Origin: Anadara kagoshimensis
Lineage: Eukaryota > Mollusca > Bivalvia > Arcoida > Arcidae
Direction: 5' to 3'
DNA length: 64,000 nt
NCBI GenBank assembly: GCA_021292105.1
Contig: CM037869.1
Location: 24,504,050 to 24,568,049, forward strand
Under the pieces are notes generated by a model, which was not told where the DNA came from, ran no database searches, and saw only the letters and a program-made list of their open reading frames with translations. Below are positions 6,660 to 58,934 of this stretch, one piece after another (position 1 is the first letter of the stretch; each line of letters opens with the position of its first letter). The position numbers and the translations under genes were made by a program.

Positions 6660-7137
6660 TAGTGACCGACAAGATAATATCGTCCAAACACATATACAGT
6701 GATGTTTTATTATACTTTACATTTCTATTTAAAAGACAGCCAGTCTCCGACATATAGAGGAAACTGGAGTTCCCGGTTAAAAACCGCAATGGGAAGATCT
6801 GACAAAGCAGCTCAGAAAAAATGCATGATGTTAATAAAGGGAGGTTACTCTGACTATAACAAACTATATGCATGTATATATAGTTAGTTACAGTACAAGT
6901 TACCTCCCTTTATTTTTAAAAACTATTGCCCCAATGTTAAAAAAATATAATAAAAAAGGTTGCGTATGAATTTGAATTTAAATGCACGAGACTAACTTGG
7001 TTTCCAATAGCAACCCAAAGTTTTATCCATCTGAAATTAAATGCAAAGTTCTGACCGATGAAAATACTGTAAATCAAGGCAATTTAATTATTATGAAAAT
7101 GCATTGAAAGTTAAACAGAAAAAACTAGTTAAAATAG
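6660..7137. other. Spacer, no gene seen
   Basis: A short imperfect palindrome, AAAGGGAGGTTAC...GTTACCTCCCTTT, spans about 6837-6911. No protein-coding signal. Confidence 0.4.
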
Positions 7138-7243
7138 TGTTACATACCATTTTTAAAAATTTGATCATAAAATCCATTCAAAAATGGTATATTGTCATTT
7201 TTAAAATGTATTTTATGTTTAAAAAAAAAATGATATATGACAC
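7138..7243. repeat. Two overlapping copies of a ~60-nt hairpin element
   Basis: The left copy (7138-7197) reads ACATACCATTTTT to AAAAATGGTATAT. The right copy (7193-7243) starts TGTCATTTTTAAAATGTATT and ends ATGATATATGACA. They are degenerate relatives of the hairpins at 16980-17063 and 33935-33996. Confidence 0.6.
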
Positions 7244-7394
7244 AAGCATAAAGTTCCGAATTTTATCACTTATGATAATGTCAATTCTTTGTATTATCTT
7301 TATATTGTAAATCAAAAGGATATTCTCTAATACACAAGATAGAAATTATCGCTAACCAGCTGGTTGTATCAAACTCACAAATAGTAACATGTCT

Positions 7395-7640
7395 TGACCT
7401 TTCAAGGTCGTCAAAAAGTTTTATGGACCCAATTATTGAGATCTCTGTATCTAAAATTATCCTGGGTATAGTTTCATGTTCCTTTCATTCTAAGTTTTGA
7501 GTTCTCACTGGCTGGTGCAGCTAGCTAAATAGAAGGGGCTTACCGATCCGTTGCACCCGGCTTTATTTCCCTGGTGGAAATTTACGTGTTTTGCATTTAT
7601 TTATTTGCAAAGATTTTAGTTTGCATTTGCGATTGTGGAT
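7395..7640 (+). mobile_element. 3' end of MGTNCA-type retroelement
   Basis: The degenerate C-terminal codons and 3' UTR of the dispersed retroelement best seen at 48430-49010 are recognisable: TCAAAAAGTTTTATGG, then TAGTTTCATGTTCCTTTCA, GCAGCTAGCTAAATAGAAGG and TTCCCTGGTGGAAATTTACG. The 46-bp satellite starts where this element's 3' tail should be. Confidence 0.75.
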
Positions 7641-10600
7641 TGGAATGTACGGGTATGTTTGTGGATGAATTTTGTGATTGTGGAATGGGTATGGACAGAT
7701 ATGTTTCTGTTCGACTTTTGTTATTGTTGATTTTAAATGGGTCAGTATATTTGTGTTTGACTTTTGGGTTTGTGGTTTGGACATTAACCGGTATGTTTGA
7801 ATTGGATTTTTGTGATTTTTGATCGGACATGGACCGGTATGTTTCTGTTTGACTTTTGTGATTGTGAATTGGACACGGACCGGTGAGTTTGTGTTTTACG
7901 ATTGGACACGGACCGGTATGTTTGTGTTTGACTTTTGGAATTGTGGATTTGACATGGACCGTTTAGTTTGTGTTTGACTTTTGGAATTGAGAATTGGACA
8001 TGGACCGGTATGTTTGTGTTTGACTTTTGGAATTGTGAATTTGACATGGACCGATATGTTTGTGTTTTACGTTTGGAATTGTGAATTGGATACGGATCGG
8101 TGAGTTTGTGTTTAACGTTTGGAATTGTGAATATTGGACACGGACCGGTGAGTTCGTGTTTGACTTTTAGAATTGTGAATTGGGCATGGACCCGTTTGTT
8201 TGTGTTTGACTTTTGGACTTGTGAATCGGACATGGACCGGTATGTCCATGTTTGACTTTTGGAATTGTGGATTGGACATGGATAGGTATGTTTCTGTTTG
8301 ACTTTTGGAATTGTGAATTAGACATGGACCGGTATGTTTGTGTTTGACTTTTGGAATTGTGAATTAGACATGGACCAGTATGTTTGTGTTTGACTTTTGG
8401 ACTTGTGAATCGGACATGGACCGGTATGTCCATGTTTGACTTTTGGAATTGTGAATTGGACACGGACCGGTATGTCCATGTTTGACTTTTGTGATTGTGA
8501 TTTGGACATGGACCGGTATGTTTTTGTTTGACTTTTGGAATTGTGAATATTGGACACGGACCGGTGAGTTCGTGTTTGACTTTTGGAATTGTGAATTGGG
8601 CATGGACCCGTTTGTTTGTGTTTGACTTTTGGACTTGTGAATCGGACATGGACCGGTATGTCCATGTTTGACTTTTGGAATTGTGGATTGGACATGGATA
8701 GGTATGTTTGTGTTTGACTTTTGGAATTGTGAATTAGACATTGACCGGTATGTCCATGTTTGACTTTTGTGATTGTGATTTGGACATGGACCGGTATGTT
8801 TTTGTTTGACTTTTGGAATTGTGAATATTGGACACGGACCGGTGAGTTCGTGTTTGACTTTTGGAATTGTGAATTGGGCATGGACCCGTTTGTTTGTGTT
8901 TGACTTTTGGACTTGTGAATCGGACATGGACCGGTATGTCCATGTTTGACTTTTGGAATTGTGAATTGGACACGGACCGGTATGTCCATGTTTGACTTTT
9001 GTGATTGTGATTTGGACATGGACCGGTATGTTTTCGTTTGACTTTTGGAATTGTGATTTGGACACGGACCGGTATGTTTGTGTTTGACTTTTGGAATTGT
9101 GATTTGGACACGGACCGGTATGTTTGTGTTTGACTTTTGGAATTGTGATTTGGACACGGACCGGTATGTTTTTGTTTGACTTTTGGAATTGTGGATTTGA
9201 CATGGACCGGTATGTCCATGTTTGACTTTTGGAATTGTGATTTGGACATGGACCGGTATGTTTGTGTTTGACTTTTGGACTTGTGAATCGGACATGGACC
9301 GGTATGTCCATGTTTGACTTTTGGACTTGTGAATCGGACATGGACCGGTATGTCCATGTTTGACTTTTGGAATTGTGATTTGGACATGGACCGGTATGTT
9401 TGTGTTTGACTTTTGGACTTGTGAATCAGACATGGACCGGTATGTCCATGTTTGACTTTTGGAATTGTGAATTGGACACGGACCGGTATGTCCATGTTTG
9501 ACTTTTGGAATTGTGATTTGGACACGGACCGGTATGTTTGTGTTTGACTTTTGGAATTGTGATTTGGACACGGACCGGTATGTTTTTGTTTGACTTTTGG
9601 AATTGTGAATTGGACACGGACCGGTATGTCCATGTTTGACTTTTGGAATTGTGAATTGGACATGGACCGGTATGTTTGTGTTTGACTTTTGGACTTGTGA
9701 ATTGGACACGGACCGGTATGTCCATGTTTGACTTTTGGAATTGTGATTTGGACATGGACCGGTATGTTTGTGTTTGACTTTTGGACTTGTGAATTGGACA
9801 CGGACCGGTATGTCCATGTTTGACTTTTGGAATTGTGAATTGGACATGGACCGGTATGTCCATGTTTGACTTTTGGGATTGTAATTTGGACATGGACCGG
9901 TATGTTTTTGTTTGACTTTTGGACTTGTGAATCGGACATGGACCGGTATGTCCATGTTTGACTTTTGGAATTGTGAATTGGACACGGACCGATATGTCCA
10001 TGTTTGACTTTTGTGATTGTGATTTGGACATGGACCGGTATGTTTTTGTTTGACTTTTGGAATTGTGAATTGGACACGGACCGGTATGTCCATGTTTGAC
10101 TTTTGGAATTGTGAATTGGACATGGACCGGTATGTCCATGTTTGACTTTTGGACTTGTGAATCGGACACGGACCGGTATGTCCATGTTTGACTTTTGGAA
10201 TTGTAAATTGGACACGGACCGGTATGTCCATGTTTGACTTTTGGAATTGTGAATTGGACACGGACCGGTATGTCCATGTTTGACTTTTGGAATTGTGAAT
10301 TGGACATGGACCGGTATGTTTGTGTTTGACTTTTGGACTTGTGAATTGGACACGGACCGGTATGTCCATGTTTGACTTTTGGAATTGTGATTTGGACATG
10401 GACCGGTATGTTTGTGTTTGACTTTTGGACTTGTGAATTGGACACGGACCGGTATGTCCATGTTTGACTTTTGGAATTGTGAATTGGACATGGACCGGTA
10501 TGTCCATGTTTGATTTTTTGGATTGTAATTTGGACATGGACCGGTATGTTTTTGTTTGACTTTTGGACTTGTGAATCGGACATGGACCGGTATGTCCATG

Positions 10601-12815
10601 TTTGACTTTTGGAATTGTGAATTGGACACGGACCGGTATGTCCATGTTTGACTTTTGTGATTGTGATTTGGACATGGACCGGTATGTTTTTGTTTGACTT
10701 TTGGAATTGTGAATTTGACACGGACCGGTATGTCCATGTTTGACTTTTGGAATTGTGAATTGGACATGGACCGGTATGTCCATGTTTGACTTTTGGGATT
10801 GTAATTTGGACATGGACCGGTATGTTTTTGTTTGACTTTTGGAATTGTGAATTAGACATGGACCGGTATGTCCATGTTTGACTTTTGGAATTGTGAATTG
10901 GACATGGACCGGTATGTCCATGTTTGACTTTTGGAATTGTGATTTGGACGTGAACCGGTATGTTTGTGTTTTACGTTTGGAATTGTGAATTGGACATGGA
11001 CCGGTATGTCCATGTTTGACTTTTGGAATTGTGAATTGGACACGGACCGGTATGTCCATGTTTGACTTTTGTGATTGTGATTTGGACATGGACCGGTATG
11101 TTTTTGTTTGACTTTTGGACTTGTGAATCGGACATGGACCGGTATGTCCATGTTTGACTTTTGGAATTGTGAATTGGACACGGACCGGTATGTCCATGTT
11201 TGACTTTTGTGATTGTGATTTGGACATGGACCGGTATGTTTTTGTTTGACTTTTGGAATTGTGAATTAGACATTGACCGGTATGTCCATGTTTGACTTTT
11301 GGAATTGTGAATTTGACATGGACCGGTACGTCCGTGTTTGACTTTTGGAATTGTGAATTTGACATGGACCGGTATGTTTTTGTTTGACTTTTGGAATTGT
11401 GAATTTGACATGGACCGGTATGTCCATGTTTGACTTTTGGAATTGTGAATTTGACATGGACCGGTATGTCCATGTTTGACTTTTGGAATTGTGAATTTGA
11501 CATGGACCGGTATGTTTTTGTTTGACTTTTGGAATTGTGAATTTGACATGGACCGGTACGTCCGTGTTTGACTTTTGGAATTGTGAATTTGACATGGACC
11601 GGTATGTCCATGTTTGACTTTTGGAATTGTGAATTTGACATGGACCGGTATGTCCATGTTTGACTTTTGGAATTGTGAGTTGGACACGGACCGGTATGTC
11701 CGTGTTTGACTTTTTGAATTGTGAATTGGACACGGACCGGTATGTTTTTGTTTGACTTTTGGAATTGTGATTTGGACATGGACCGGTATGTTTGTGTTTT
11801 ACGTTTGGAATTGTGAGTTGGACACGGACTGGTATGTCCATGTTTGACTTTTGGAATTGTGAATTTGACATGGACCGGTATGTTTGTGTTTTACGTTTTG
11901 AATTGTGAGTTGGACACGGACTGGTATGTCCATGTTTGACTTTTGGAATTGTGAGTTGGACACGGACCGGTATGTCCATGTTTGACTTTTGTGATTGTGA
12001 TTTGGACATGGACCGGTATGTTTGTGTTTTACGTTTGGAATTGTGAGTTGGACACGGACTGGTATGTCCATGTTTGACTTTTGGAATTGTGAATTTGACA
12101 TGGACCGGTATGTTTGTGTTTTACGTTTGGAATTGTGAGTTGGACACGGACTGGTATGTCCATGTTTGACTTTTGGAATTGTGAATTTGACACGGACTGG
12201 AATGTCCGTGTTTTACTTGTGGGATTAGGGTTTGGACATGGACCGGTATGTTTCTGTTTGACTTTTGTGATTGTTAATAGGACATGGACCGGTATGTCCA
12301 TGTTTGACTTTTGGAATTGTGAATTGGACACGGACCGGTATGTTTTTGTTTGACTTTTGGAATTGTGAATTTGACATGGACCGGTATGTTTGTGTTTTAC
12401 GTTTGGAATTGTGAGTTGGACACGGACTGGTATGTCCATGTTTGACTTTTGGAATTGTGAATTTGACATGGACCGGTATGTTTGTGTTTTACGTTTGGAA
12501 TTGTGAGTTGGACACGGACTGGTATGTCCATGTTTGACTTTTGGAATTGTGAATTTGACATGGACCGGTATGTTTGTGTTTTACGTTTGGAATTGTGAGT
12601 TGGACACGGACTGGTATGTCCATGTTTGACTTTTGGAATTGTGAATTTGACACGGATCGGTATGTCCGTGTTTTACTTGTGGGATTATGGTTTGGACATC
12701 GACCGGTATGTTTCTGTTTGACTTTTGTGATTGTTAATAGGACATGGACCGGTATGTCCATGTTTGACTTTTGGAATTGTGAACTGGACATGGGCCGGTA
12801 TGTTTTTATTTGACT
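7640..12815 (+). repeat. Satellite array, 46-bp unit, about 112 copies
   Basis: The period is exactly 46 bp over long stretches (for example GGTATGTCCATG at 9301 and 9347). Units differ at a few recurrent sites: GTATGTTTGTG, GTATGTCCATG or GTATGTTTTTG; GAATTGGAC, GATTTGGAC or GAATCGGAC; CACGGACC or CATGGACC. A rarer 48-bp variant (GAATATTGGACACGG) recurs at about 8131, 8547 and 8823, showing multi-unit blocks were copied together. The minus strand of the usual unit has no stop triplet in any frame, so very long reading frames (up to 8318-11779) appear by chance. I see no start context, splice sites or domain supporting a gene. Confidence 0.95.
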
Positions 12816-12979
12816 ACATCGTCTTAAGCCATTGCTGAAATAGATACAACACGAATGGGTATACCAGCTAAAGTGTGGAGTGGAGAAATTGAGTTGAACT
12901 ATCCTGTCAAAATCCCCTCACTTATGGCAAAGCGGTCACTTCTGGCTTATGGATTGGTGTGGGTTATAACTATGTTTAA

Positions 12980-13235
12980 CTTCCCTGTTATTTCTACCGA
13001 GGCTGTAAAAGACTTGGATGGTGGAGTGGGGTATTGGTGTTTTAACATACGTCAAAATTATCCTACTAATTCGATGTGTTCTGGGAAGTTGGAAGAAACC
13101 AGAATGCCCATAGAAAGCCACCTACCTTCGAAATTACAAACTGTATAGGATTCGAGCCGAAGCCGCGGTGAGAGACACTTTGTTTTGTAAGCAGACTTTA
13201 GACTATTCGGCCACTAAGTTACCCACACCTACCAT
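12980..13235 (-). mobile_element. tRNA-Leu-like SINE, minus strand
   Basis: Read on the minus strand from about 13232, the head is TTAGTGGCCGAATAGTCTAAAG with a B-box GGCTCGAATCC. The body has GGCTTTCTATGGGCATTCTG and GTTTCTTCCAAC, as in the copies at 49060 and 41270. A 97-codon frame on the opposite strand is a by-product. Confidence 0.55.
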
Positions 13236-13905
13236 GATTTAGATAGCAAAGTATCCTAAATAAATAATTATAAGTAAAGATATTTACAGACGGGGTTATT
13301 TTTGACAATTTTCGAAAACAAAAATAAAAATATATTTAACAACAATATTCATCGTTCAAAATATGCTAAAATTGGAGAAAAATAACCCACATCTGTACGC
13401 GTATCAATATAATTATAACTGCACTGTACGTACTTAACACCGCTGTTAGACTTTGTTTCTATTTATGTTGTAACTCATTTATTTTCATATTTTTTCATTA
13501 TCCTGTCAGTGTGACATTTTAAATAAAAACTCTCTTCTTTATCATAACAAGTGTAAATCTACTTATATCTAATTGGTATACTCTTTCTAGATGATTTTGG
13601 GGACAATGACTTAGTGGTGTATAATTGTTATTATAATAAATCTGTGTGACAAATACTAATATATTTAACATTACTTAAGACTTCAAGTGAGTGACCCTGT
13701 AAGTATAAAAATAAAGTTAAGATACTATCTAATGGCCCTTAGGGACTACAATACTGGTGTTAGTACTGTATATGTATTGTAAAACACCCACAACTTACTA
13801 TTGTTCCTATATATAGATTTGTCACGGTGATAATAGTTGCATTCAGCTATAATTAAGATCATCCTTCTGAGCAAGGTCAATGGCATTGTACGAAAACAGT
13901 CCGTT
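13236..13905. other. Spacer, no gene seen
   Basis: AT-rich, without open frames of note or recognised repeats. Confidence 0.4.
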
Positions 13906-13906
13906 A

Positions 13907-14065
13907 CACAGAGAGAGAGAGAGGGAGAGAGAGAGACTTTTACAAAGAGAGTCTGTCACACACACATACAGAGAGAGAGAGAGAAGAGAGAGGAGAGAGA
14001 GAGAGAGAGAGAGTGTGTGTGTGTGTGTGTTCACATACATACACCAGCACAGAAACGGATCCGGA

Positions 14066-14098
<33 letters not shown>

Positions 14099-14129
14099 CC
14101 TCACGAAATCGTGTTAATTGATGTGTGAA

Positions 14130-14175
<46 letters not shown>
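13907..14175. repeat. Compound (GA)n, (GT)n and (CA)n microsatellites
   Basis: GA tracts lie at about 13911-14010 and 14070-14093, a short GT tract at 14013-14030, and a ~44-bp CA tract at 14131-14174. Arg-Glu-rich frames here are artefacts. Confidence 0.9.
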
Positions 14176-14176
<1 letters not shown>

Positions 14177-14539
14177 TTTAGCGACATGTCTTCAAGCATA
14201 GTAGTATTAATCTTAATATAGATTGTGACTGAAACCCTGAAACCGGCAAGACCTTTTTTGTATTTTACTTTGTCCCAATTTTCCCTGTAGACAACCCGGT
14301 CAAAAACTGTTACACATTTCATTTCATACCCGGATACAAACGTCATACCAGTCTAAAGTTTACACTGTCACCCGAAACCTGTACAGCATTTTATCATATT
14401 GTGATATACCCACTTTCTCGGAATTAGGGGGAAGGGACTACCCAAATTATTTGCAGTTCATATATACCGTCCAACTATTTTAGTACAACATAATCTATCA
14501 CTATAAAAAGTCGTTGTAAATAACAACTGTCAAAACTTT

Positions 14540-14887
14540 CTATATTAAAAACAAACATACCAATCAATATCCAAATCACTATCACAAAACAAACCGAAAC
14601 TGTTAAATCTGACAAATTCAGTGAACAACTTGAGCTATCATCATGGAAGTGAGACAGAATGCTCCGGAAGGGCAAATATTTAATATTTAGCTAGCTACAC
14701 CCACCACGTGTGAAATTAAAGTTAATAATAAAAGGAAAATGGAACAATGAGACGCCAACCATATCCGGGATAATTTTGGATACAGAGACCTCATACTTAT
14801 CAACAATATTGTGATGACGACCATAAAACGTTTTTAGGGCATCGACAAGCATAGGCTTACAATATCCCTGCATCAACATTTCATTTG

Positions 14888-14942
<55 letters not shown>

Positions 14943-15033
14943 TAAGCTTGCTTCGTTGTATAATATTCCCGTAGTGTAACAAGTTCTACCATAGCGTATT
15001 AGTTGTGAAACAAATACATCATAAGCAGGAGAA
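14540..15033 (-). mobile_element. 3' end of MGTNCA-type retroelement, with (AAAT)n expanded inside its coding part
   Basis: On the minus strand it reads SPAYDVFVSQLIRYGRT-like codons, then an (AAAT)n tract (about 14885-14942), then GYCKPMLVDALKTFYGRHHN, VDKYEVSVSKI, then the 3' UTR with AGCTAGCTAAAT and the tail ATTGGTATGTTTGTTTTTAA. In intact copies the coding sequence at the tract position is GCAAATAAATTG. Confidence 0.8.
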
Positions 15034-15054
15034 GCAGGAATACTGCTTACGCTC

Positions 15055-15113
15055 TGTCCTGTGCTGATTTTGAATTTTTATTAAAATAATGCATTCAAAA
15101 TCAGCACATGACA
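15055..15113. repeat. 59-nt hairpin element
   Basis: The arms TGTCCTGTGCTGATTTTGAA and TTCAAAATCAGCACATGACA pair almost perfectly around an AT-rich loop. It lies between the two tandem retroelement ends and is related to 18732-18853 and 16980-17063. Confidence 0.75.
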
Positions 15114-15272
15114 ACAGCAGGGCTTTTGAATTTTTATTACTAGTGTGGCGACACCTTTAGGGGTTTCGCGGGAAAGAATGGAACAATCTAGAGGATTTCT
15201 ATTAGTAGAGCTCATCCACAGAACTTGCCACTCAAAAGTTTAACACAGACCTAACGGATAAGTGCCAATCCG

Positions 15273-15420
15273 TGGAACAATGAGACGCCAACCATATCCG
15301 GGATAATTTTGGATACAGAGACCTCATACTTATCAACAATATTGTGATGACGACCATAAAACGTTTTTAGGGCATCGACAAGCATAGGCTTACAATATCC
15401 CTGCATCAACATTTCATTTG

Positions 15421-15471
<51 letters not shown>

Positions 15472-15562
15472 TAAGCTTGCTTCGTTGTATAATATTCCCG
15501 TAGTGTAACAAGTTCTACCATAGCGTATTAGTTGTGAAACAAATACATCATAAGCAGGAGAA
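15273..15562 (-). mobile_element. Second tandem copy of the retroelement 3' end
   Basis: It is almost identical to 14741-15033, including the (AAAT)n tract, at an offset of 533 bp (529 bp after the tract). This implies a recent duplication. Confidence 0.85.
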
Positions 15563-15951
15563 TTTCAAGATTCGCATAAACATCGGTTTTTCACTCCCGA
15601 GTGGAATACCACTCCGCAAGTCCAGATGTCGAGCACTCTATCGTCTATTAAACTTGTTTTTTAACAAGCTCTACCTTGAATAACTGTAACTTGACCATAA
15701 ATATGAATATGTAATTTTTTGTCATTGACTGAAATAAAATTTGTTTGAAATATTATCCAAGATTGATGACCTATTTTGTTTCTTTCAGGCATGACGTCAA
15801 ATGGACGGGGCTTAATGTTTCTGAATAGCTGTTCCATGTCTAGGTCACGTCCGCCGTTAAAAATTCTTTTTCGAAACATTGGAATTTATTTCATTCAACG
15901 GAATTTGCAATTTTGCACTTGTAAAGAAAGAATACATTGTAAATATAAGAC

Positions 15952-16097
15952 TTGACTGTCATTTTTCCTGGTTCATCAAGTAATGAACCAGATTTTAAAA
16001 CTAGCAAATCTAAAATGAACTGCTATGCAGTTCATCAAATTTGCAAGTTTTAAAATCTGGTTCATTACTTGATGAACCAGGAAAAAATGACAGTCAA
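15952..16097. repeat. 146-bp near-perfect palindrome
   Basis: The outer arm TTGACTGTCATTTTTCCTGG is matched by CCAGGAAAAAATGACAGTCAA. The centre is GAACTGC-TAT-GCAGTTC. A few mismatches and a one-base indel separate the ~70-nt arms. It is probably a short non-autonomous inverted-repeat element. Confidence 0.8.
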
Positions 16098-16104
16098 TTC
16101 TTAA

Positions 16105-16235
16105 ATGAGCTTTGACTTTCATTTCGTAATGCCGAGTGCTTAGCGAAAGAACAGTCACTACCCACTTTCAAGTCTTGGGTAACGACCTACGACCTCCCTC
16201 TTATGGAGTGAACACTTTACCAAATGGTTTCAAAG
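16105..16235 (-). mobile_element. Truncated type 1 SINE, minus strand
   Basis: Minus-strand AAAGTGGGTAGTGACTGTTC and GCACTCGGCATTACGAAATG are preserved. The head is degenerate and the 3' part is missing; it abuts the palindrome at 16097. Confidence 0.7.
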
Positions 16236-16239
16236 AAGA

Positions 16240-16979
16240 CAAAAGTGTGTTTGTGTGCTTCATGATTCTTGTCTGAACATTTCTGTTTTTACAGAATATA
16301 TAATCCATTGTGATTCCGATATATCTTGCTTTACTCAATCTGTTTCAATTGCTTTTTACAGTAGTTGATAAGCGTCCTCTGTAGCGCTCTAAAGTGGACT
16401 ACCCTTTTGAACTCTACAGAGGTGTCTTTAGCATGCACTGAGACACGGGACCTCGGTTTTGAGTCTCATCCGAAAGATTATTTTAGTATTGAGTTATTAT
16501 ATGGTAATTGAACGTAGATAATCTTAGTCCCATAAATGTTATCAAATCTTTGAAGTGTTTACAGTCTACTTGCATCTTTTGCCTGAAATATTACTCTTTA
16601 ATTGCATCAGAATCAAAATATTAAAATTTGTATTAAGATTTCTAAAGTTAACATTAGTGACAACCATATTGACTGTGATATTTCATAATATGTACATAAC
16701 GTTCGTTTTCTTACTCGATGAACCTCACACTCCGGATGACTAGTGTTTAAATTTGTTTTATCTTAAACACGGGTAGTCAAGTGAAACAAGTACTGTGTAT
16801 CGATAGAGTAACAAGAAAGTTCATATCGAGGTAAAATCCAGGAAGAGAAATACGCTAGGATTGGTACGTCATCCTTAGTATATTACATTAAGCTGTCGAG
16901 CTACCGAATGCCAGGTACACCGGGGTCGTGAGGGTAAAACAGGTAGGGGATATAAAATGTTAGTGGTTTATTGTTCTAT
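16240..16979. other. Spacer, no gene seen
   Basis: No repeat family or exon was recognised. Confidence 0.35.
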
Positions 16980-17063
16980 TGTCATATACCATTTTTTGAA
17001 TGTATTTTTTGAATGTATTTTTTTAATGTATTTTATGATTTAATTCAAAAATGGTATATGACA
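16980..17063. repeat. 84-nt hairpin element
   Basis: TGTCATATACCATTTTTTGA pairs with TTCAAAAATGGTATATGACA. The loop contains a short duplication (TTTTTTGAATGTA). Confidence 0.75.
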
Positions 17064-17189
17064 CTATTAAAACATCATTAATGCAATCGTTACCATTTGC
17101 AGAAAAATGTTAATTATAAAAATAACTTTCATTACAATCATTTGCAAAATCTAATTCTTTAAAATAATTGTAAAAATCAAAAACAGATA

Positions 17190-17374
17190 CATTACATTTC
17201 TATTACTTGTATGCAACGTTTATTCAAAATTTTCCATAATGACTTTGGATTCGAGTGGCGCATAACTTTCAATTTCTTTTGAAAATCAGACCTATAATTC
17301 TTTGTACATTTATTAAGTTCATGTTGATATTTCTTTTCAACAAAAAGCATTCCTGATAAATATTGTGGTACCAT
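17190..17374 (-). pseudogene. LINE fragment (linker before reverse transcriptase)
   Basis: The minus strand encodes KKYQHELNKCTKNYRSDF then MRHSNPKSLWKILNK, which is the spacing and wording of the region between endonuclease and reverse transcriptase in Jockey/CR1-like LINEs. No other domain is attached. Confidence 0.6.
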
Positions 17375-17394
17375 ATTTTTTGTACATTTTAAAT

Positions 17395-17480
17395 TATAAA
17401 AAACCTACTCTGTTTAAGGTATTAAGTATTAATGGATTGCGATTACCTCCCATTATTCCAATTATCATTTTGTTTAATGC

Positions 17481-17522
<42 letters not shown>

Positions 17523-17760
17523 CAGAGACATGATGCTTATGCCTACCCTTCCGGAGTATCCAGGCTCACTTCTCGGATGGAAATTCACGTGTTTAACCTG
17601 TCAGTTTCAGTGTTTTACATTGCCTCTAGCTCTGGATTATGATTCGGACATGGATCAGTATGTTTGTTCACTCTATTCACCAATTTTCAAAAGTTTTACT
17701 TTGCTTTGAGATTGTGTTTTGGACATGGATTGGTATGTTTGTTTTTAATCGAGTATCCAA
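17395..17760 (+). mobile_element. Retroelement 3' UTR and tail fragments, with (ATG)n
   Basis: CCTACCCTTCCGGAGTATCC and GATTCGGACATGGATCAGTA match the retroelement 3' UTR and 46-bp-like tail. A (GAT)n tract lies at about 17482-17522. Confidence 0.65.
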
Positions 17761-18054
17761 TTACCATTTTTTTTTAAAGAATGATGATGATGATGTTACG
17801 AAACAGCGATTTGTCGGATTTCGTAACATCGCAACTATTTGGACAGTCCAGGTCAAACCTCTCTCGTATTTAATTGTAAATCATCAGAAGCCAGTCGCGC
17901 ATTATACTAGGTTTATGACTTTCTTATTCCGTGCACATGCATTTCAGTTTTAAAGAAATTCGAATATACAGTTAATGGAAAACTCTACACAAGTCACACT
18001 ATTAATTATACATATACTTGAAGTGTTACACTTTATATAGCTATTTGCATCTTT

Positions 18055-18370
18055 TACCTGAAATAAATAACATACCAATCCATGTTCAAATCATAATCAA
18101 AGTTTTTTTTTAATGGCAAATTAGTAATTAGGTTAAACACACCAACTTTCACCAACCGACCAGGGAGGGGCGGTCGGGCACTCCGGAAGGACAAGCACCT
18201 CCTGTCTCGTCACGTGTATAATCAAAGAAACATGGAACCACGGTATATCAATGATGTAAGGAGCAATTTTGGATACAGAGACATCCTACTTATGCTTACC
18301 TTTCCGGAGCACCCGGCCTCATTTTTTTGGTGGAAGTGCGCGTATTTAACTTAATGTCATTTTCAAAGTT
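18055..18370. mobile_element. Two head-to-head retroelement 3' UTR fragments
   Basis: A minus-strand piece (tail ACATACCAATCCATGTTC, then CTCCGGAAGGACAAGCACC, then TTTTGGATACAGAGACATC) is followed at about 18290 by a plus-strand piece (TTACCTTTCCGGAGCACCCG). Confidence 0.6.
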
Positions 18371-18730
18371 TTAAAGTTTTAACTTTGCTTTGGAATTGTG
18401 TTGTTTGTTTTTGATCAAATATAAAATATTAAATTCTCTGGAACTGTAGGGCTTAGTTGAATCCTAAAAACGTGTTTAGTAGAATCAAGAATTATCAAAA
18501 TATCCATAAAAACTAATGAATTGTTGCCATAAATCTCCAGATACTATTTACTTATAGTGTTTTCGTCAAATATTTCCAAAAGGTGTTTGAAAACTAATTT
18601 GTAATTTTAAGTTTTAAGAAATAAGGTAATAACAGGCTTCCGGCCTTTTGTGCAATTTGAGGCAGTCCATTATACGTTGCAAGTTCACAAAGATTTTTGG
18701 AAAATTACCTTATTTCTTATTTTTACAATA
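18371..18730. other. Spacer, no gene seen
   Basis: A decayed continuation of the retroelement tail is possible up to about 18420. An inverted pair, AAGAAATAAGGTAAT (about 18617) and ATTACCTTATTTCTT (about 18705), bounds an element of about 105 bp. Confidence 0.35.
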
Positions 18731-22480: not shown

Positions 22481-24080
22481 GTAAGAATTCATGAAATAAA
22501 TTACGGGGCCGTCATTACAGTATTGTTCTTTAGTTTGATGTCTCTGTGTCCAGGAGTGCCCTTGATTTATTTGACGTCCCATAGTTCCATGTTCCTTTCA
22601 CTCAATTTTGACTTAGTTTGATATCTCTGTGTCCAGGATTGCCTCGGATTTATTTGACGTCCCATAGTTCCATTTTCCTTTCACTAATGTTTTATAACGC
22701 GCGTGGCGGGTTGAGCTAGCTAAACAGGAGGTGTTTGCCCTTCCGGAGCACACAGTCTCACTAGTCTATGTGATTAATCTAATTTGCCAGCTTAAAAGTT
22801 TTTCCTTTGCTTCTGGATTGGCATTCGAACATGGATTAGTAGTTTTGTTTTTGATGATTACCAATCTAAGAATAATCTCTAAACATGGTACTAATTGACG
22901 GATCGGTGACCACGCCCACAATGTTCCGACAAAGACCTGGCATGCTTGAATGACACACAATAAGAATGAAAACTTGGCCTGAATTGTACCTTTTAATGAC
23001 GTCACTGACATTAGTACGTCACTAGTTGCCGTGACGCTGCTTTGGTACCGTGATGACGGCCTTTGTCGGAACATTGTGGGCGTGGCCGGCGATACGTCAA
23101 TTAGTAACGTACTGTGTATAATTGAATCCAGTTGTTCCAAGCTTAAATAGTTTAATCCATGCTTAAAAATGTTAAGAAGTCAATAAAAATGAAAATAACA
23201 TCATCAAATTGATAGTTTATAATCATATAGTTAAGTTAGGTGTAATTCTATTTACTTTCAACATTTACAACATTAATTTCAAAACAGAGCTGAAATTTTG
23301 ATTCATCAATTGATGGTCATTTCCAATGAAACCGTGTGATGGTTAGATATAAGATTTGTAAGTCTAAACAACAATTTCTTATGAACATCATATAAAAACT
23401 CAATTCTACGCTAATAGGTGACCGAATAGCTCAATTGTTAGAACGCTCAGCTAGTATTGGGAGGGTCCAAGTTTGGTGTTCGCTGCATTTTTCCTTTCAT
23501 GTTACATTTGGATGACCCGTCCGATATTGGGAATTGGTTGGTCCAAGGATGCGACTTGGTGTTTTTGATTTAAGTGAGTCGAAAAAATTAGGGAGGAATG
23601 TGGCGGGCCGGACTTGATATTTGACCGGGTAGCTCAATTGGTAGAGCTTGCCGCTAGAATTGAGAATGTCCCGTGTTTGAGTCCCAATTCGGCCGCTACA
23701 TTTGTCCCATTCTTGTTACAGCAACACTAGACGGTCGTTTCCGAATAATATTCCTCATCAGCATTTATTTATACCTCAGCCAAGTAAAGTTTTAATTATT
23801 ATTTGATGTCTATTCTGGCATTAAGTTGAACATGTACAACTTTATAAAGCGAACTATTTTTTCAATGATACGTGTGTACCTACTGCATGAAACTAACGGC
23901 AACTCTAAATCATTATTTTTTATTGAAGACGACAAAATTCAAATCTACATGTTCGGTCTAATTCGATTTATTGTCGCTACATTTTCAGTAGTATAAAGTT
24001 CTTATTTCCTGTATTTTTATATTTTGTAGTACACAGACCAAGGACTTCGACGGACTTTACCTGGTACGTTAACCCCCCCC

Positions 24081-26549: not shown

Positions 26550-27366
26550 TTAGATTCTACACAAATGTCAGGCGCTCTACTACTAGTATTCCATTTATAT
26601 ATATTTTTTATTAAAAAAAATTATTTTGTAAGCCTAGGCTTATCAAGGCCCGCAAAACGTTTTATGGCCGTCATCACAATATTGTTGATAAGTTTGATGT
26701 CTCTGTGTCTAGGATTGCCCTGGATATATTTGACGTCCATAGTTTCATGTTCCTTTCACAATTTTGATTACACACATGGCGGGTGTAGCTAGCTAAACAG
26801 GAGGTGCTTACCCTTCCAGATCACCCGGTCTCACTTCCCTGTTGGAAGTTCACTTGTCAATGCTAAAGGTTTTACTTTTTTCAGGATTGTGATTCGGACA
26901 TGGATTAGTATGTTTGTTTTTGATTGTATCTAATTTTGTTTGTATTTTTTTTTTTGTAGCTCATTATATAGTTGGATGGATATCGTACATAAAGAATGTT
27001 TTCACATTTGACAAAAACCAGGCAAGAGACGTCATTACTGTTCCGGAAAAGGGTCTATATTTTACTTACAGTCGTATACACTTCACTGTTAAACAAAAGG
27101 GAGAAAATAAACGATCCGGGGTATACCAAATGCCGGTTACGCATGCGCTGTACAGGCGGACAACTGGAGGAAGGTTTGAGGTGATACAGGATTCGTCTTT
27201 AAAATGTTCAATGCAAAATGACACTTCGGTAGTACATAGCAGCTACTTAGAGGGTATTGCCTATTTTAAAAAGGGAGATGAGATTAAAATTGGACTTACT
27301 TACTCCGAAACATTGGAATATGACATTACAAACAAAGACAATTATTTCGGTATGTTCCAAGTGTGA
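21953..27366 (+). CDS. TNF superfamily ligand 1 (four exons, 355 aa)
   Basis: The spliced CDS is 21953-22480, 24030-24063, 26290-26388 and 26960-27366. All introns are GT-AG, with phases 0, 1, 1. The product is a predicted type II membrane protein. The cytosolic tail (about residues 1-90) holds RPRFSVSESESC. One membrane segment spans about 91-121. The stalk carries CPIKC and ECC (residues 144-165). The C-terminal TNF homology domain (about 222-355) has GLYFTYSRIHF, MPVTHALYRR, YLEGIAYFKKGDEIKIGL and the closing NYFGMFQV. TNF homology domains trimerise and bind TNF receptors at the cell surface or after shedding; that role here is inferred. The domain has one Cys (KCSM). Start: the ATG at 21953 is used, with in-frame alternatives at 21962 and 21974. 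The tandem paralogue is at 38483. Membership of the superfamily is firm; the vertebrate orthologue is not assigned. Confidence 0.9.
22500..22865 (+). mobile_element. Retroelement 3' end in TNF ligand 1 intron 1
   Basis: GTTTGATGTCTCTGTGTCCAG occurs twice in tandem (about 22535 and 22617, first 20 bases conserved), followed by GAGCTAGCTAAACAGGAGG, CCCTTCCGGAGCACAC and the tail TTCGAACATGGATTAGTA. It starts about 20 bp after the exon 1 donor. Confidence 0.75.
22888..23112. mobile_element. MITE-like element, family E, in TNF ligand 1 intron 1
   Basis: The ends are inverted repeats of about 45 nt, e.g. CCACGCCCACAATGTTCCGA (left) against TCGGAACATTGTGGGCGTGG (right). It carries a perfect CRE palindrome TGACGTCA at 22997-23004. 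Only this copy is seen in the window. Confidence 0.8.
23415..23720 (+). mobile_element. Two tRNA-like SINE heads about 205 bp apart
   Basis: The heads begin near 23423 (GACCGAATAGCTCAATTG, degenerate B-box) and 23625 (GACCGGGTAGCTCAATTGGT with B-box GTTTGAGTCCC). Both lead into CGCTGCATTT or CCGCTACATTT and a C-poor, T-rich body. The second head looks tRNA-like, but an intact acceptor stem cannot be drawn, so a functional tRNA is unlikely. Confidence 0.5.
24030..24063 (+). CDS. TNF ligand 1, exon 2 (34-nt microexon)
   Basis: Acceptor TTATATTTTGTAG at 24029; donor GTACGT at 24064. It enters in phase 0 and leaves in phase 1, encoding YTDQGLRRTLP plus the first base of a Gly codon. It is required to join exons 1 and 3 in frame, and its counterpart at 40511 also starts with Tyr. 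Confidence 0.75.
24072..24198. repeat. C8 and (CT)n(CA)n microsatellite 9 nt after the microexon donor
   Basis: A C run, CT repeats and interrupted CA repeats run to 24198. The tract begins 9 nt after the 5' splice site. Confidence 0.95.
24240..25367. other. TNF ligand 1 intron 2, no exon seen
   Basis: A 62-codon frame at 24301-24489 has no recognisable domain, and no splice pattern supports it. Confidence 0.4.
25368..25714. mobile_element. Inverted-repeat element family C, in TNF ligand 1 intron 2
   Basis: Ends: TACAGTTTGTCGAAAGTTT and AAACTTTCGACAGGCCTGTG. Inside, a 36-bp stretch (CTGCTGTCAACTGCTCGACC...) is tandemly duplicated near 25466-25540. Confidence 0.65.
26290..26388 (+). CDS. TNF ligand 1, exon 3 (linker)
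   Basis: 99 nt between TTTTTATAG and GTAAGTAT, phases 1/1. It encodes a basic, Pro/Ser/Thr-rich linker (RGRPRTSAL near its start) between stalk and TNF domain. Confidence 0.78.
26503..26546. repeat. (CA)n microsatellite in intron 3
   Basis: About 22 CA units, 115 bp after the exon 3 donor. Confidence 0.95.
26625..26935 (+). mobile_element. Retroelement 3' end immediately upstream of TNF ligand 1 exon 4
   Basis: It reads AAGCCTAGGCTTATCAAGGC, TTTTATGGCCGTCATCACA, GTAGCTAGCTAAACAGGAGG, and ends with the single-unit tail GATTCGGACATGGATTAGTA, 25 bp before the exon 4 acceptor tract. Confidence 0.85.
26960..27366 (+). CDS. TNF ligand 1, exon 4 (TNF homology domain)
   Basis: Acceptor TTTTTTTTGTAG; the stop TGA is at 27364-27366. 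The whole receptor-binding jelly-roll domain is in this exon, as is usual in the superfamily. Confidence 0.92.
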
Positions 27367-28079: not shown

Positions 28080-28695
28080 AATTTATGGATTGGTTTTAAT
28101 TATCCGAAATAATTTATAGAACGATTTCTCTGAGATAATTTATGGAACGTTTGTATTTGTCTCTGAGAAAATTTATAAAACGTTTGTATTTGTCTCCGAG
28201 AGAATTTATAGAACGTTTGTATTTGTCTCTGAGAAAATTTATAGAACGTTTGTATTTGTCTCCGAGAGAATTTATAGAACGTTTGTATTTGTTTCTGAGA
28301 AAATTTATAGAACGTTTGTGTTTGTTAACGAGAGAATTTATAGAACGTTTGTATTTGTCTCTGAGAGAATTTATAGAACGTTTGTGTTTGTCTCCGAGAG
28401 AATTTATAGAACGTTTGTATTTGTCTCTGAGAGAATTTAGAACGTTTGATTTTCTCTCTGAGAGAATTTATGGAACATTTGTTTTTTTTCTATGAGAGAA
28501 TTTATAGAACGTTTGTATTTGTATCTGAGAGAATTTAGAACGTTTGATTTTCTCTTTGAGAGAATTTAGAACGTTTGATTTTCTCTTTGAGAGAATTTAG
28601 AACGTTTTATTGTCTCTGAGAGAATTTATGGAACGTTTGATTTTCTCTCTGAGAGAGATTTATGGGACGTTTGTACATGTATTTTCTCCGAGAGA
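28080..28695 (+). repeat. 33-bp minisatellite, about 18 copies
   Basis: The unit starts GAACGTTTGTATTTGTCTCT and ends GAGAGAATTTATA. Because 33 is divisible by 3, part of the array is an open frame of 11-residue repeats (ERLYLSLREFI). Later units lose 2 bp (31 bp) and break the frame. A coding role is not supported. Confidence 0.9.
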
Positions 28696-31339: not shown

Positions 31340-31734
31340 AATATACATATACATAGTTTATTGATATATAAGAATTTGTTTTTGTTTCATGTAAATCATG
31401 TAAAGGTTGTTATGTAATACAGTTACTGAGTATGTTATCTGTTTAACATTAAAATTTAAAAATATTTTAAATGATGTTTTCTTAAAACGATAGATAGGAA
31501 CAATAAGTCAGGTGTTCAGTTACTTGGTCGTTGTGAGGTGTTTTCAGCTCCCGGAAATACAAATCATGCAAGCAAAACCACTATAAAAGGTGTTGAATGT
31601 ATCTCCGGGGGAGTTGTCAGAAAGCAAACCGAAAAGAGAATTAACCCCAGAAAAATATCGAAGGATCAAAACGATTACTTCAACTTTTTGACGTAATGTA
31701 ACGACGACGCATTGCAATCAAAGTTGTAATCAAA

Positions 31735-32065
31735 ATCAAACATATCTATCTATGCCAAAGTCACAATCCCAAAGCAAAGTACAAACTTTGAAGCTGGCAA
31801 ATTGGGCTAAACACGCGAATTTGTAGTAGGGAAGTGAGGCCAGGTGCTCCAGAAAGGTAAGCGCCGTCTGTTTAGCTATCAACGTCATTCACGTGTGAAA
31901 TCAAACTTGAGAATGAAAAGAAAAATGTAACTTTGGGATGTCAAATTTTTGGATACAGAGGCATCATACATAGGATGGACAGTTTTGGACATAATACTTT
32001 TTGAGGGCCCTGATAAACCTAAGCCAGCAATATCTTTGCTTCAACAATTTAATTGTTTCGATGGA
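31735..32065 (-). mobile_element. Retroelement 3' end, minus strand
   Basis: On the minus strand it reads AAGCAAAGATATTGCTGGCT, CTCTGTATCCAAAAATTTGA, then the UTR with CTGGAGCACCTGGCCTCACT and a single worn tail unit (ATTGTGACTTTGGCATAGAT). Confidence 0.65.
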
Positions 32066-40811: not shown

Positions 40812-43327
40812 ATATGTGCGTTTTTTCCATTTTGATATCTTATGACGTAAAGTAAGAAACGGAAGTCATGATAAGTTCAGTAGGTTTATTGTGGTTTTTG
40901 CGGTTTTAAACACTTGTCTGTTACCTGTATATAATATCACACTTATCTGGTAATCATTTACCTGTATACATGTATATGATTTTAACATTTTATTGTTTGT
41001 AAACTGACTGAAGTTTTTGTACTTTACTGGGATTTATTTTGTGGTTTTGTCGCTTCATAAAGTTCAATGTTATTGTAAAATGATATCTAAGTATGAGTAA
41101 TAGAGCCAATATATATAATGGTAAACATTGTAAACGTGATTAGGTTAAGGTTTTCTCTTTTAATTTTAAGATTTAAATTCACACTTAAAAATTTTGGTTG
41201 AAAATATTGACACTTCGATAGTTTAAAATCAATGTTTTTTCCATTGGAAATGGGGCAGAATTTCGGCCCTAAATAGCCCCTTGATCAATCCCTGCAAGGC
41301 AATCAGGTTTAAGATGGTGGAGGAAACTGGAGTACCCAGAGAAAACCACTGACCTTCTATTTCTGCATCCCTATATATCCCCAATTAACGTCTCTAATTT
41401 ACATACAAAATACGTGTGTTATTATAACAAACCGGGTTTTATTAGTACCGAATCCAATTCCTATTCTTGGCCAAGGATGTCTTAAACAGTATTGTAATGA
41501 TTTTTGATTTTGACATACATTTATACTAATATGTTATTCTCCATACTGAAATATGAAATGCGAAAATTTCATAAAAATCTATACCGAAACAAGATAGAAA
41601 TCGACAAATTTCAAATACACCTCCCGTTAATCCAAATCGAATAGGTCGGTTTTTTTTTTTTTTTTTTTTTTTTGGGGGGGGGGGGGGGGAGGAGGGGTGT
41701 GCCGTGACGTCACTTAAGTAACAAGCCCAAACAGAATACTATTTACCTATATAATGGACTAGCTAAAATGTTTTGTAATATTTCACGGTAAATTCATTTG
41801 ATGAAGTAGAATTTACATCCGAATCACACCTACCAAGGCGTATGTCCTGCAATATCGATGTAATATCTATGCATCATTTCGTCATGACTGGGGGACAGCT
41901 TGTTTCCGTGGATCCTAGTGGGTCATTTTTTCATTTTTTAGTAGAAAACCGCACAGAGTGAGCCTCTTGAAATGAATGCTAATCAGTTCAATCGCCAATG
42001 TTGAGCATAAAAACGGACAGCCATTGCTTCACTGATACTATCCAGTACTTTTATATTTTATATTTACTGATGTTACAATTTGTTAATGTTTTTGTCCTTT
42101 TATTATAGGTGGCATCAGGCCGGCATTACAGCTAAAAGGAGGGCAGCCAGCAAATCTATCCAGAAACCCTGGTAAGTTTGTAATAACAAGTTTGTATAGT
42201 ATGTTCTCTTGTATTTCATTCAGCTTTCAATACGTTGACTTGCGTGAAATTCTATCATCAACACCATTCACGGTCGTTTGTCCAGTTTATTTTGGATTCA
42301 TTGTATACTTTTTAATAAACTGAATCATCCAAAATCACAATAAACCGGTCCCTGTCCAAATCACAATTCCAAAAGTCGAACACAACCATACCGGTCTTTG
42401 TCCAAATCCAAATCCCAAAAGTCAATCACAAAGTCCAAATCCCAATTCCCGGAAAAGCCAAACATAAACATACAGGTCCACGTCCAAATCACAATCTCAA
42501 AAGTCAAAAACAAACATACCGGTTCATATCTAAATCACAATCCCCAAAAATAAAACACAATTATACCGTTCCCTGTTCCAATCACAAGTTCTATGTCCAA
42601 ATCACAATCCAAAAAGTCAAATAAAACTATACCTATCCCTGTCCAAATCACAATTCCAAAAGTCATACACAACCATACCAGCCCATGTCAAGATCAAAAT
42701 TCCAATAGCCTAACATTAACATACTGGTCCATGTCCAAATACCAATTCAAAAAGTCAAGGACATTCATACTTTCAAAATCCCAAAAATCAAACACAAACA
42801 TACTGGTTCTTTTCAAAACCACAGTCCCAAAAGCAAATTAATTTTTTGAAATAAAAATGGCAAATTATTTACACGTAAGGTTCCTGATTAACCAAGTGAT
42901 CTCTATCCGATACATATGTTTTGTTTCAGCTAACTATATACAGAACTGGAAATGGGATGATAAGATGAGAGTTAAACAAGATGTCAGCTACCGTGACGAC
43001 ACAATTACCATACTAGTGAGCGGCCATTATTATATATACAGTAGAATTCATTTCAGTGCCAAAATTAAAGATGGTGGAACTGTATCTTCCGGTCAAATGC
43101 CGGTTACTCACGCGCTGTTTCGCAGACAAGTTGGTGGTATATTCAAATCCCTGCAGTCGTCCACAATTAAATGTTCGATACACCAAAATACTACAATTCA
43201 CAGCAGCTTTTTGGAAGGCATGGCGTATTTACGAGTCGGAGAAGAACTCAAAATTGGACTAAACCATGGTGAACATTTAGAATTTATCAGCAAAAATGAT
43301 AATTATTTCGGTTTATTTAAGTTGTAA
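38483..43327 (+). CDS. TNF superfamily ligand 2 (four exons, 389 aa)
   Basis: The spliced CDS is 38483-39160, 40511-40541, 42109-42171 and 42930-43327, GT-AG throughout, with the same phases (0, 1, 1) as ligand 1. The predicted type II protein has RPHFTISESESC near the N-terminus. A Cys-rich cytosolic stretch (residues 73-123: CQRC, CNHEC, CQC, CSEQC) is absent from ligand 1. The membrane segment is about 136-163 and the stalk has CEIKC and ECC (190-214). The TNF homology domain spans about 258-389, with HYYIYSRIHF, MPVTHALFRR, FLEGMAYLRVGEELKIGL and NYFGLFKL. RNQR, a minimal furin-type site, is encoded by the microexon, so shedding is possible (inference). It is a clear tandem paralogue of ligand 1; conservation is highest in the last exon. 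Confidence 0.92.
39200..39490 (+). mobile_element. Type 1 SINE in TNF ligand 2 intron 1
   Basis: B-box GGGTTCGAACCCC, then GACTGTTCTTTTGCCAAGCA, GCATTATGAAATGAAAGTCA and the 3' end GACTGGGACGTTTAACACCA. The stretch between head and body is shortened. Confidence 0.8.
39395..40000. repeat. 202-bp tandem triplication of a SINE 3' end plus flank
   Basis: GGCAAAATTCTGTACCTTCG begins at 39395, 39597 and 39799, giving a period of exactly 202 bp. The copies are nearly identical, so the event is recent. Confidence 0.92.
40110..40201. repeat. (TG)n(AG)n microsatellite
   Basis: TG units to about 40153 are followed directly by AG units to 40200. The (GA)n part on the same strand recurs near both exon 2 flanks. 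Confidence 0.95.
40511..40541 (+). CDS. TNF ligand 2, exon 2 (31-nt microexon)
   Basis: Acceptor TTTATTTTAG; donor GTAAGT. It encodes YINRNQRTNS and one base of the next Ser codon, phases 0 to 1, exactly as in ligand 1. Contains RNQR. Confidence 0.78.
40548..40810. repeat. (CA)n(GA)n microsatellite block 6 nt after the microexon donor
   Basis: CA then GA tracts occur twice (from 40548 and from 40614) separated by the duplicated AAATAAACGGACAAGCAAGT. Then comes a ~50-bp CA tract to 40723, a third AATAAACGGGCAAGTAAGTTC copy (first 20 nt recognisable), and a GA tract to 40810. Confidence 0.92.
40811..41269. other. TNF ligand 2 intron 2, no exon seen
   Basis: Nothing recognised. Confidence 0.35.
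41270..41425 (-). mobile_element. Fragment of the tRNA-Leu-like SINE body
   Basis: The minus strand reads GGTCAGTGGTTTTCTCTGGG then TACTCCAGTTTCCTCCACC, the body signature seen after the tRNA-like heads at 13232 (minus) and 49060. Confidence 0.5.
41650..41692. repeat. T-run followed by G-run
   Basis: About 24 T are followed by about 17-18 G and GAGGAGGGG. Such G-runs can form quadruplex structure and are error-prone in assembly. Confidence 0.9.
42109..42171 (+). CDS. TNF ligand 2, exon 3 (linker)
   Basis: 63 nt between TTATTATAG and GTAAGTTT, phases 1/1. It encodes GIRPALQLKGGQPANLSRNP. Confidence 0.8.
42320..42845 (-). repeat. About 11 diverged units of the 46-bp tail repeat
   Basis: The motif CATACCGGTCCATGTCCAAATC and variants (first 20 nt typical) recur about every 46 bp. 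This is the minus-strand form of the satellite at 7640-12815. Units are more diverged, so this array is older. It ends about 85 bp before exon 4. Confidence 0.85.
42930..43327 (+). CDS. TNF ligand 2, exon 4 (TNF homology domain)
   Basis: Acceptor TTTTGTTTCAG; the stop TAA is at 43325-43327. The single domain Cys (KCSI) matches that of ligand 1. Confidence 0.93.
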
Positions 43328-46489: not shown

Positions 46490-46830
46490 AACCAATCAAA
46501 AACATACTAATTCATATCCAAAGCAAACCCCTAATGAAATAAAAACCTGAACTGACTTCAGGGAAAACATACCAATCCATGTCCAAACCACAATCCTAAA
46601 AAATAAACACCTGAACTGTCACCAGAGAAAAAACATACCAATCCATGTCCAAACCACAATCCTAAAGAAATAAAAACCTGAACTGTCACCAGAGAAAAAA
46701 CATACCAATCCATGTCCAAACCACAATCCTAAAGAAATAAACACATGAACTGTCACCAGAGAAAAACATACCAATCAATGTCCAAATCACAAGAAATAAA
46801 CACCTGAACTGTCACCAGGGAAGTAGGTCG
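46490..46830 (-). repeat. 67-bp tandem array derived from the retroelement tail
   Basis: About five units contain ACATACCAATCCATGTCCAA and GAACTGTCACCAGAGAAAAA. The first motif is the same tail repeat as in the 46-bp arrays and the second is the adjoining 3' UTR, so a longer segment was amplified here. Confidence 0.8.
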
Positions 46831-47400
46831 GAGTTCTCCGATCCAGAGAACATGTGATGACTGTCTGTCACTGACATGAAATAAAAAGACGTTATTCGTA
46901 ACAACATGTAAATGTTTTCATTATTTTTGTTTTTCTAAAAGATAACGAAACACTACTGCATTTTAATTACCTAATTAATATATTTCGCTGGGGGCAAGAA
47001 TAAACTGATTAAAAAACATACTTTAAGCTTCATTTGTATTATTTTGTGCTATTGATGTATATGCATCAAAGTATTTCTTAAATCGTGAAAATACTGGAAA
47101 CTGAACCATACAAATGGTATATACTAGTATATGATTCTATGTCAAATCTGATATTTTTTATCACCTGTAATGATATTCCTTTATCTTTTACCTGTAACTA
47201 TTTTTGTTGCTGAGTGATAGATGATATTTTGACGTCATAGGAAATTCCAATCCGTCATTGTTAATATAACCTTTGACCTATGTCATATTAGATATGATAG
47301 GTATAGTCAATTATCTCTTGTACACGTTTGTACTATGCAGGTCATTGTAACGTGTCCTAATTCTTTATCAGCCGACCTCTTTATAACTTAAAATCAGATA
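46831..47400. other. Spacer, no gene seen
   Basis: Nothing recognised. Confidence 0.3.
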
Positions 47401-58932: not shown

Positions 58933-58934
58933 AA

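Follow-up and report, generated by a model that had tools for sequence, protein, structure and literature searches.

The 46-bp satellite array that occupies some 5 kb of a 64-kb stretch of the genome of the bivalve Anadara kagoshimensis (GCA_021292105.1, contig CM037869.1, positions 24,504,050-24,568,049 of the forward strand; hereafter the window, whose own numbering is used below) is the multiplied 3' tail of the very element copy that stands at its 5' edge, a retroelement assigned on its predicted domains to the Penelope-like elements (PLEs). For the satellite as a whole, the reading favored here is that of an amplified PLE tail, first seeded and then grown locally, in three steps, and a probability of roughly two in three is given to it. 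The evidence is drawn from the window and from searches of the assembly (36 contigs, 1.115 Gb).

The element copy in question, copy A, is a 5'-truncated 3' region (the body) located at 7388-7624 on the forward strand (nhmmer E 5.4e-47). The array of approximately 113 units follows at 7619-12815, on the same strand, without a gap and in register with the body, and its final unit ends at the 3' terminus of the element, near 12815. Tandem Repeats Finder (TRF) describes 7901-12803 as 106.5 copies of period 46 with 87% matches, and reports 7619-7896 separately as a 46-bp stretch of greater divergence, while a wrap-around alignment of 7619-12815 yields 114 segments, partial ones included, and extension from the end of the body counts 112.98 units. 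The commonest unit, GGGATTGTGATTTGGACATGGACCGGTATGTTTGTGTTTGACTTTT, is homologous to the final 46 bp of dispersed copies that bear a single tail, typified by copy C (TTCTGGATTGTGATTCGGAAATGGATTAGTATGTTTGTTTTTGATT). The most diverged units of the array lie at its edges and those of the interior are organized in duplicated blocks. An initial annotation, made from the letters of the window, had proposed that the satellite unit is a retroelement 3' tail, that the array begins where the tail of copy A should be and that dispersed copies end in a single tail, as before 26935; each of these proposals is borne out, the last by the 5'-truncated, single-tailed copy B (26624-26934, forward strand), together with copy C, which ends at 49008.

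The element family is common in this window, where a profile of the dispersed copies found 17 matches, or about one per 4 kb. A 331-bp query taken from copy C (48688-49008, forward strand; body and single tail, ending in ...GTTTGTTTTTGATT) returned 3426 first-look candidates in the assembly, of which 40 were scored, giving 41 matches. All but one of these are near full length at 97-100% identity, and the 3' end falls at query position 320-326 in 33 of the 40. The 20 young copies inspected (L010-L029, at least 97% identity) carry one tail each, with the terminus ...TTTTTGATT or a few bases off, at or near ...GTTTGTTTTTGATT. By comparison, the 5' ends of 29 young copies are scattered over reference positions 159-1577 (a thirtieth ran off its locus), indicating variable 5' truncation. 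A long open reverse transcriptase (RT) frame persists in two young copies, comprising 534 residues in L026 and 480 in L013, and is broken in the others. The L026 frame matches RVT_1 (E 3.9e-6, 27.1 bits, just below the Pfam cut-off of 29.6), and a 357-residue frame at a single locus, L104, matches GIY-YIG (E 4.2e-4, 21.0 bits, just below the cut-off of 22.6). This locus belongs to a head-to-tail tandem pair on C10, with the copies 3265 bp apart, and as it lies it presents an RT frame, the 3' region, one tail and, immediately after this, the 5' part of the following copy, which bears the GIY-YIG match. The RT frame runs on for about 100 residues past the core and then stops, no Pfam domain following the core, and GIY-YIG is positioned 5' of the RT, an order that takes the 5' part from one locus with broken frames, read as it lies. 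The two matches together with their order identify the carrier, as judged from its predicted coding content, as a Penelope-like element with a GIY-YIG nuclease upstream of the RT.

Other features were sought in the carrier. No pseudo-long terminal repeat (pseudo-LTR) was found at the one locus compared (554 bp from the 3' end of copy 1 against the adjoining 1488 bp of copy 2, best E 0.35), and no hammerhead was found with Rfam at gathering thresholds in the window, L013, L026 and L031 or up to E 5 in L104, L026 and L028. The RT gave no phmmer match to PDB chains at E 1; its motifs presumably resemble those of telomerase. Folding of the tail RNA gave a z score of -2.27 for the last 69 nt of copy C, whereas 149 nt (z -0.56) and a satellite dimer (z -0.69) are unremarkable. 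For a candidate hairpin in the tail, compared across 71 distinct tails, pairing is seen in 80% of cells, as against 38-62% when slid, mostly through G-U, with one pair mainly C/U.

The tail repeat extends well beyond the window. A 224-bp array query gave 1010 first-look candidates, of which 40 were scored, and 269 matches, part of them listed; among the matches listed, 46-bp arrays are present at 26 sites or more on 13 contigs. Sequence was obtained for 22 array sites, 4 of them inside the window, and those outside it were picked by likeness to a query and are thus not random samples. An array of 6.1 kb was read through on C12, and long spans with matches, of 8-11 kb and not read through, lie at C17 13.97-13.98 Mb, C1 13.89-13.90 Mb and C8 41.09-41.10 Mb. 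A common unit consensus is carried exactly by 5 of 21 arrays, and the mean distance between units is 0.106 within arrays compared to 0.153 between them, which reflects local homogenization. With long head-to-tail arrays at several sites, homogenized locally, the repeat is a satellite. A scan for the unit gave no match in a viral contig collection and nine single 18-mers, all in bacteria and taken as chance, in a genome contig collection.

The growth of these arrays is local and proceeds by duplication of multi-unit blocks. With edge units and arrays of fewer than 8 units left out, 20 arrays remained for a test of linkage between unit variants, and in 14 of these linkage is far above that of per-site shuffles (z > 6; the z of array C9 comes from 2 linked pairs). 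Strings of units likewise recur in blocks in the C2 and C1 arrays. The birth of long arrays in one step from a single template was rejected as the sole account, given that variants are linked in most arrays.

The history of the window array can be read further from its paralog. A segmental duplication at 6711-18559 (forward strand) contains copy A, its array and copy K, and has its counterpart at C13:25702945-25711700, 1.2 Mb away, with flanks 84-90% identical in stretches L031 and L090 (25706250-25707699 lying outside the comparison). The same truncated copy is found in both, at 87% identity (C13:25704445). The first 229 bp of the copy A array align with the first units of the paralog at 85.7% (260 bits), the two differing by the gain or loss of one whole unit, as compared to 210 bits or less against any other array examined and 179 bits against the rest of the copy A array. 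Beyond these first units, the paralog is filled by a different dominant unit (GTTTGAGTTTTTGGTTTTTTTTATATATGGACCGG), and its array measures 1.6-3.0 kb (bounds from L031 and L090) compared to 5.2 kb in the window. First units in common followed by a different fill imply that a multi-unit array predates the duplication and that each site then grew or turned over alone.

A second duplicated array is represented by C12:15.54 and C12:14.80, which have their 3' flank and unit order in common. Unit order shared between arrays, which would point to retrotransposition of whole arrays, stood out in 1 of 190 pairs. In a control the C12 pair was detected (0 of 100 shuffles reach its score), while the older A/L031 pair was missed (100 of 100 reach it), so that the test senses recent kinship only; within that limit, 2 of the other 188 pairs lay above 6 shuffles, both with trivial scores. 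Duplication of a stretch with its copy is also seen for L037 (C9:71.61 Mb, minus) and L038 (C9:66.25 Mb, plus), which are the same insertion, with upstream flanks 97.6% identical. Three arrays (L093, L096 and C9) have younger copies inside them or at their end. Self-targeting, in which new copies land in old tails and lengthen them, was entertained for these and dropped, since the copy density of the window (about one per 4 kb) would, by informal estimate, give about as many by chance.

How the first tandem tails arose is best approached through junctions between adjacent tails, defined here as two tail cores less than 160 bp apart, with breakpoints judged by eye. The 46-bp form dominates, with 617 pairs at a spacer of 14. 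Visual inspection led to the exclusion of odd spacers within 46-bp arrays (16-21, 34, 40-42, 47-62, 65, 102-104 and 144), read as units that have diverged or lost a part, and of L038 (spacer 109) and C9 (spacer 117), read as body-level repeats or nested copies. Units of 49 bp are represented by the six young-type units that end the C9 array and also occur in L033, and further duplications measure 52 bp in L011, 59 bp at the end of copy H, 67 bp in copy I, about 75 bp in copy K and L090 and about 150 bp in copy F. Copy H (58933-59312, reverse strand) consists of a body and 5-6 tail units, the last with its own left boundary. Copy I (46490-46840, reverse strand; weak body match of 18.4 bits) bears 67-bp tail units, 4.5 of them by TRF, that include the body sequence CTGGTGACAGTTCAGGTGTTTA. 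Copy K (17539-17746, forward strand) has two tails from a separate duplication, which the paralog L090 shows as well, and copy F (62180-62561, reverse strand) has a single tail, after which another truncated body with its tail stands in the same orientation, head to tail. In these duplications the right break is the 3' terminus of the element, give or take 0-8 nt by eye, while the left end varies, and TTTTT or TTTG stands at the break in most of the unusual junctions. Varying left ends combined with a common 3' end suggest that reverse transcription restarted at its start site, as far as junction sequences can tell. The initial annotation had presented tail arrays near 58935, 42320 and 46490 as intermediate stages of growth. 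The arrays themselves are real, with 5-6 units in copy H, about 11 in array G and the 67-bp form in copy I; as stages they do not hold, since their left boundaries differ and no single growth series joins them. The 67-bp array is a separate birth with its own left boundary and not an intermediate, and in place of stages one should rather see a number of tail duplications that differ in their left ends, of which one has spread and expanded.

Taken together, the favored scheme runs as follows. The structure of the copies shows that the element inserts with its 3' end fixed and its 5' truncation variable, the tail of about 46 nt being its last part. On occasion, to judge from the junctions, reverse transcription would restart where it began, at the 3' start site, probably through slippage between the TTTTT/TTTG runs that flank the tail. 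The resulting insertion would have at least two tails, with variable left ends and with the element terminus as right end; the 46-bp form would represent one such event, now present on many chromosomes. After insertion, some arrays grow by block duplication, through unequal exchange or a similar process, with site-specific variants becoming dominant; lengths reach 5.2 kb in the window, 6.1 kb for the C12 array and, apparently, about 11 kb at the C1 and C8 sites. A function for the host would not be required.

Several observations weigh against this scheme. Both domain scores fall just under their Pfam cut-offs, and target-site duplications are weak (mean longest match of 5.03 compared to 4.51, sd 0.17). 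Little or no linkage (z of 3.4 or less) is found in 6 of the 20 arrays, namely C2, L093, L096, L099, L101 and G. The body tree, mostly unresolved, does not settle between a single and a multiple origin of the 46-bp arrays, which are not clearly clustered in it (5 changes for 6 rows, with 72 of 500 shuffles as low). Foreign DNA lies inside two unusual junctions (L014 and L099), as duplication at the DNA level would give. Tail units numbering 1.5 or more occur in 0 of 51 copies with at least 90% identity to the young body and in 8 of 44 below 90%, a test that excludes loci fetched with the satellite query, omits body matches starting after profile position 215 or ending before 262, and scores copy K as single, though the listing of adjacent tails shows two. 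After cleaning, which took out two rows of borderline character and one member of the A/L031 pair, 5 of 41 copies below 90% are multi-tailed (P 0.015). With no multi-tailed young copy, tail duplication may have taken place after insertion or may be confined to some lineages, and low identity to the young body may itself reflect age or another lineage. The C2 array is instructive here, as its units are only 2.5% apart, yet its short body matches the young one at 77.5%, so that either the 46-bp lineage was recently active or this array was lately homogenized; it holds two variants only and no linkage, but has a block period of 10 units.

These same observations lend substance to an account in which all multiplication of tails takes place after insertion and at the DNA level, by replication slippage or unequal exchange between short T-rich homologies within a single-tailed copy, which would produce the first dimer and then also enlarge it, with reverse transcription uninvolved. 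The restriction of multi-tailed copies to those below 90% identity, the foreign DNA in two junctions, the TTTTT/TTTG microhomology at the breaks and the block duplication demonstrably at work in arrays are all in keeping with it. It does not predict, however, that duplications of 46-150 bp should break within 0-8 nt of the element 3' end, and the sharing of one unit consensus across sites, exact in some arrays, indicates that this form at least spread with the element. On balance this account is judged unlikely, while deserving to be taken seriously.

A further possibility, which we consider rather improbable, is telomerase-like repeat addition, whereby the Penelope RT would recopy the RNA stretch of about 46 nt from an internal start before going on to the body and thereby seed satellites at insertion sites throughout the genome. 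The region 46-52 nt upstream (AAGTTTTTACTTTGC) would then serve as the realignment site for the terminal GTTTTTGATT. The Penelope RT is described as a relative of telomerase in passages of one report (PMC3846280).

The reverse relationship, in which an independent satellite predates the element and the element captured one or a few of its units as a tail and then spread them, can be judged from the 5' edges of the arrays. No 5' edge was reached in 7 of the 22 sites with sequence, leaving 15 that are readable. Element body in the right orientation and in register is present at 11 of these, comprising A, H and I in the window and L031, C2, C9, L093, L094, L096, L100 and L101 elsewhere, with a short or weak match in L096 and I. 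The body of C9 is detected in other comparisons and is omitted from the unit counts made by extension from the body, which leave out matches ending before profile position 230. Remnants only are found at two more edges, as two small element pieces, recognized by eye, in L092 and a 38-bp piece in array G (42332-42850, reverse strand; about 11 diverged 46-bp units). The two edges with no body (L091 and L099), along with the considerable length that arrays can attain, would suit a captured satellite, but both of these arrays start partway through a unit, the outcome expected if the RNA of a tail array were truncated at its 5' end, and the 49-bp, 67-bp and about 75-bp units include element body, which is unexpected of an independent satellite. 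A satellite mostly devoid of adjoining element and with an unrelated consensus had been named at the outset as the outcome that would overturn the tail origin; at the part of the sites covered here, body prevails and the unit is homologous to the tail. Capture is judged very improbable. That the carrier might instead be a Helitron- or Helentron-like element with an internal tandem core, as suggested by the Helentron-borne satellite-like arrays described for an oyster (PMC7492417), is refuted already by coding content (RT and GIY-YIG), and also contradicted by variable 5' ends that define no 5' terminus and by the position of the array at the very 3' end, Rep/helicase itself not having been searched for.

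The window contains several more copies of the element. The C-terminal 112 codons of the RT open reading frame precede the tail of copy C at 48470-48805 (forward strand; stop at 48806-48808) and give the same reading as the end of the 534-residue frame of L026. Single tails are borne by copy D (22495-22845, forward strand), which also has an 83-bp internal duplication of its body, and by copies E (31727-32033) and J (14546-14865), both on the reverse strand. Another copy (56125-56507, forward strand) retains RT remnants and body without the 3' end and tail. A local duplication of 98.6% identity (14740-15033 and 15273-15562) includes part of an element body, and the paralog L090 matches both of its halves. 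Apart from the element, the window holds a second minisatellite at 43893-45717, with a 54-bp unit and higher-order periods of 108, 162 and 403 bp, and other tandem arrays at 53548-54369 (275 bp), 59996-60998 (134 bp), 28127-28675 (33 bp) and 50298-50726 (28 bp). Two TNF-family stretches, at 26953-27363 and 42842-43324 (both forward strand; Pfam TNF, 1e-15 and 4.7e-17), presumably stem from a mollusc-like TNF expansion.

The carrier shares with known PLEs the combination of RT and GIY-YIG, 5'-truncated copies, head-to-tail tandems and a short 3' tail. Its nuclease-then-RT order is like that of PLEs with an N-terminal GIY-YIG, the Naiad type, which are abundant in an invertebrate genome and to which it may belong. 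The carrier is unlike the PLEs of two reports (PMC11167929; PMC3846280) in having its nuclease upstream of the RT and in showing neither pseudo-LTR nor hammerhead in the loci tested, pseudo-LTRs being described there for the canonical PLE clade. The PLE "tail" of those reports is optional and 30-40 bp long, whereas the tail here is about 46 bp, is present in nearly all copies seen and is multiplied into satellites. In the Anolis Penelope element PAc, for which target-primed reverse transcription has been carried out in vitro, the optional tail is bracketed by two internal sites at which reverse transcription starts (PMC11167929), and this is the closest known behavior to the tail restart proposed here.

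Satellites derived from transposons are already known. In Lathyrus, tandem arrays in the 3'UTR of Ogre LTR retrotransposons occasionally expand into satellites, according to passages of PMC7004042, and short 3' tandem arrays within retrotransposon copies thus give rise to satellite arrays in both cases; the Ogre elements differ in being LTR elements of a plant, and for their arrays these passages propose an origin by illegitimate recombination or by strand transfer within particles, not from a Penelope tail. Satellites have also been noted as Penelope-related (passages of PMC12692304 and PMC11955569), including HviSat02-2707 of Harttia, likewise of Penelope source but with a unit of 2707 bp, and those passages describe no tail origin or seeding mechanism. 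No paper deriving a satellite from a Penelope tail was found in the literature searched (titles, abstract starts and passages). What is new here is the connection with the Penelope "tail", a segment placed between two RT start sites by biochemistry and here tied to the birth of a satellite. With its parent, its point of birth and a sister copy all identified, the array in the window allows the order of tail, seed array and satellite to be read in one genome, and makes testable whether an RT related to telomerase can lay down tandem repeats.

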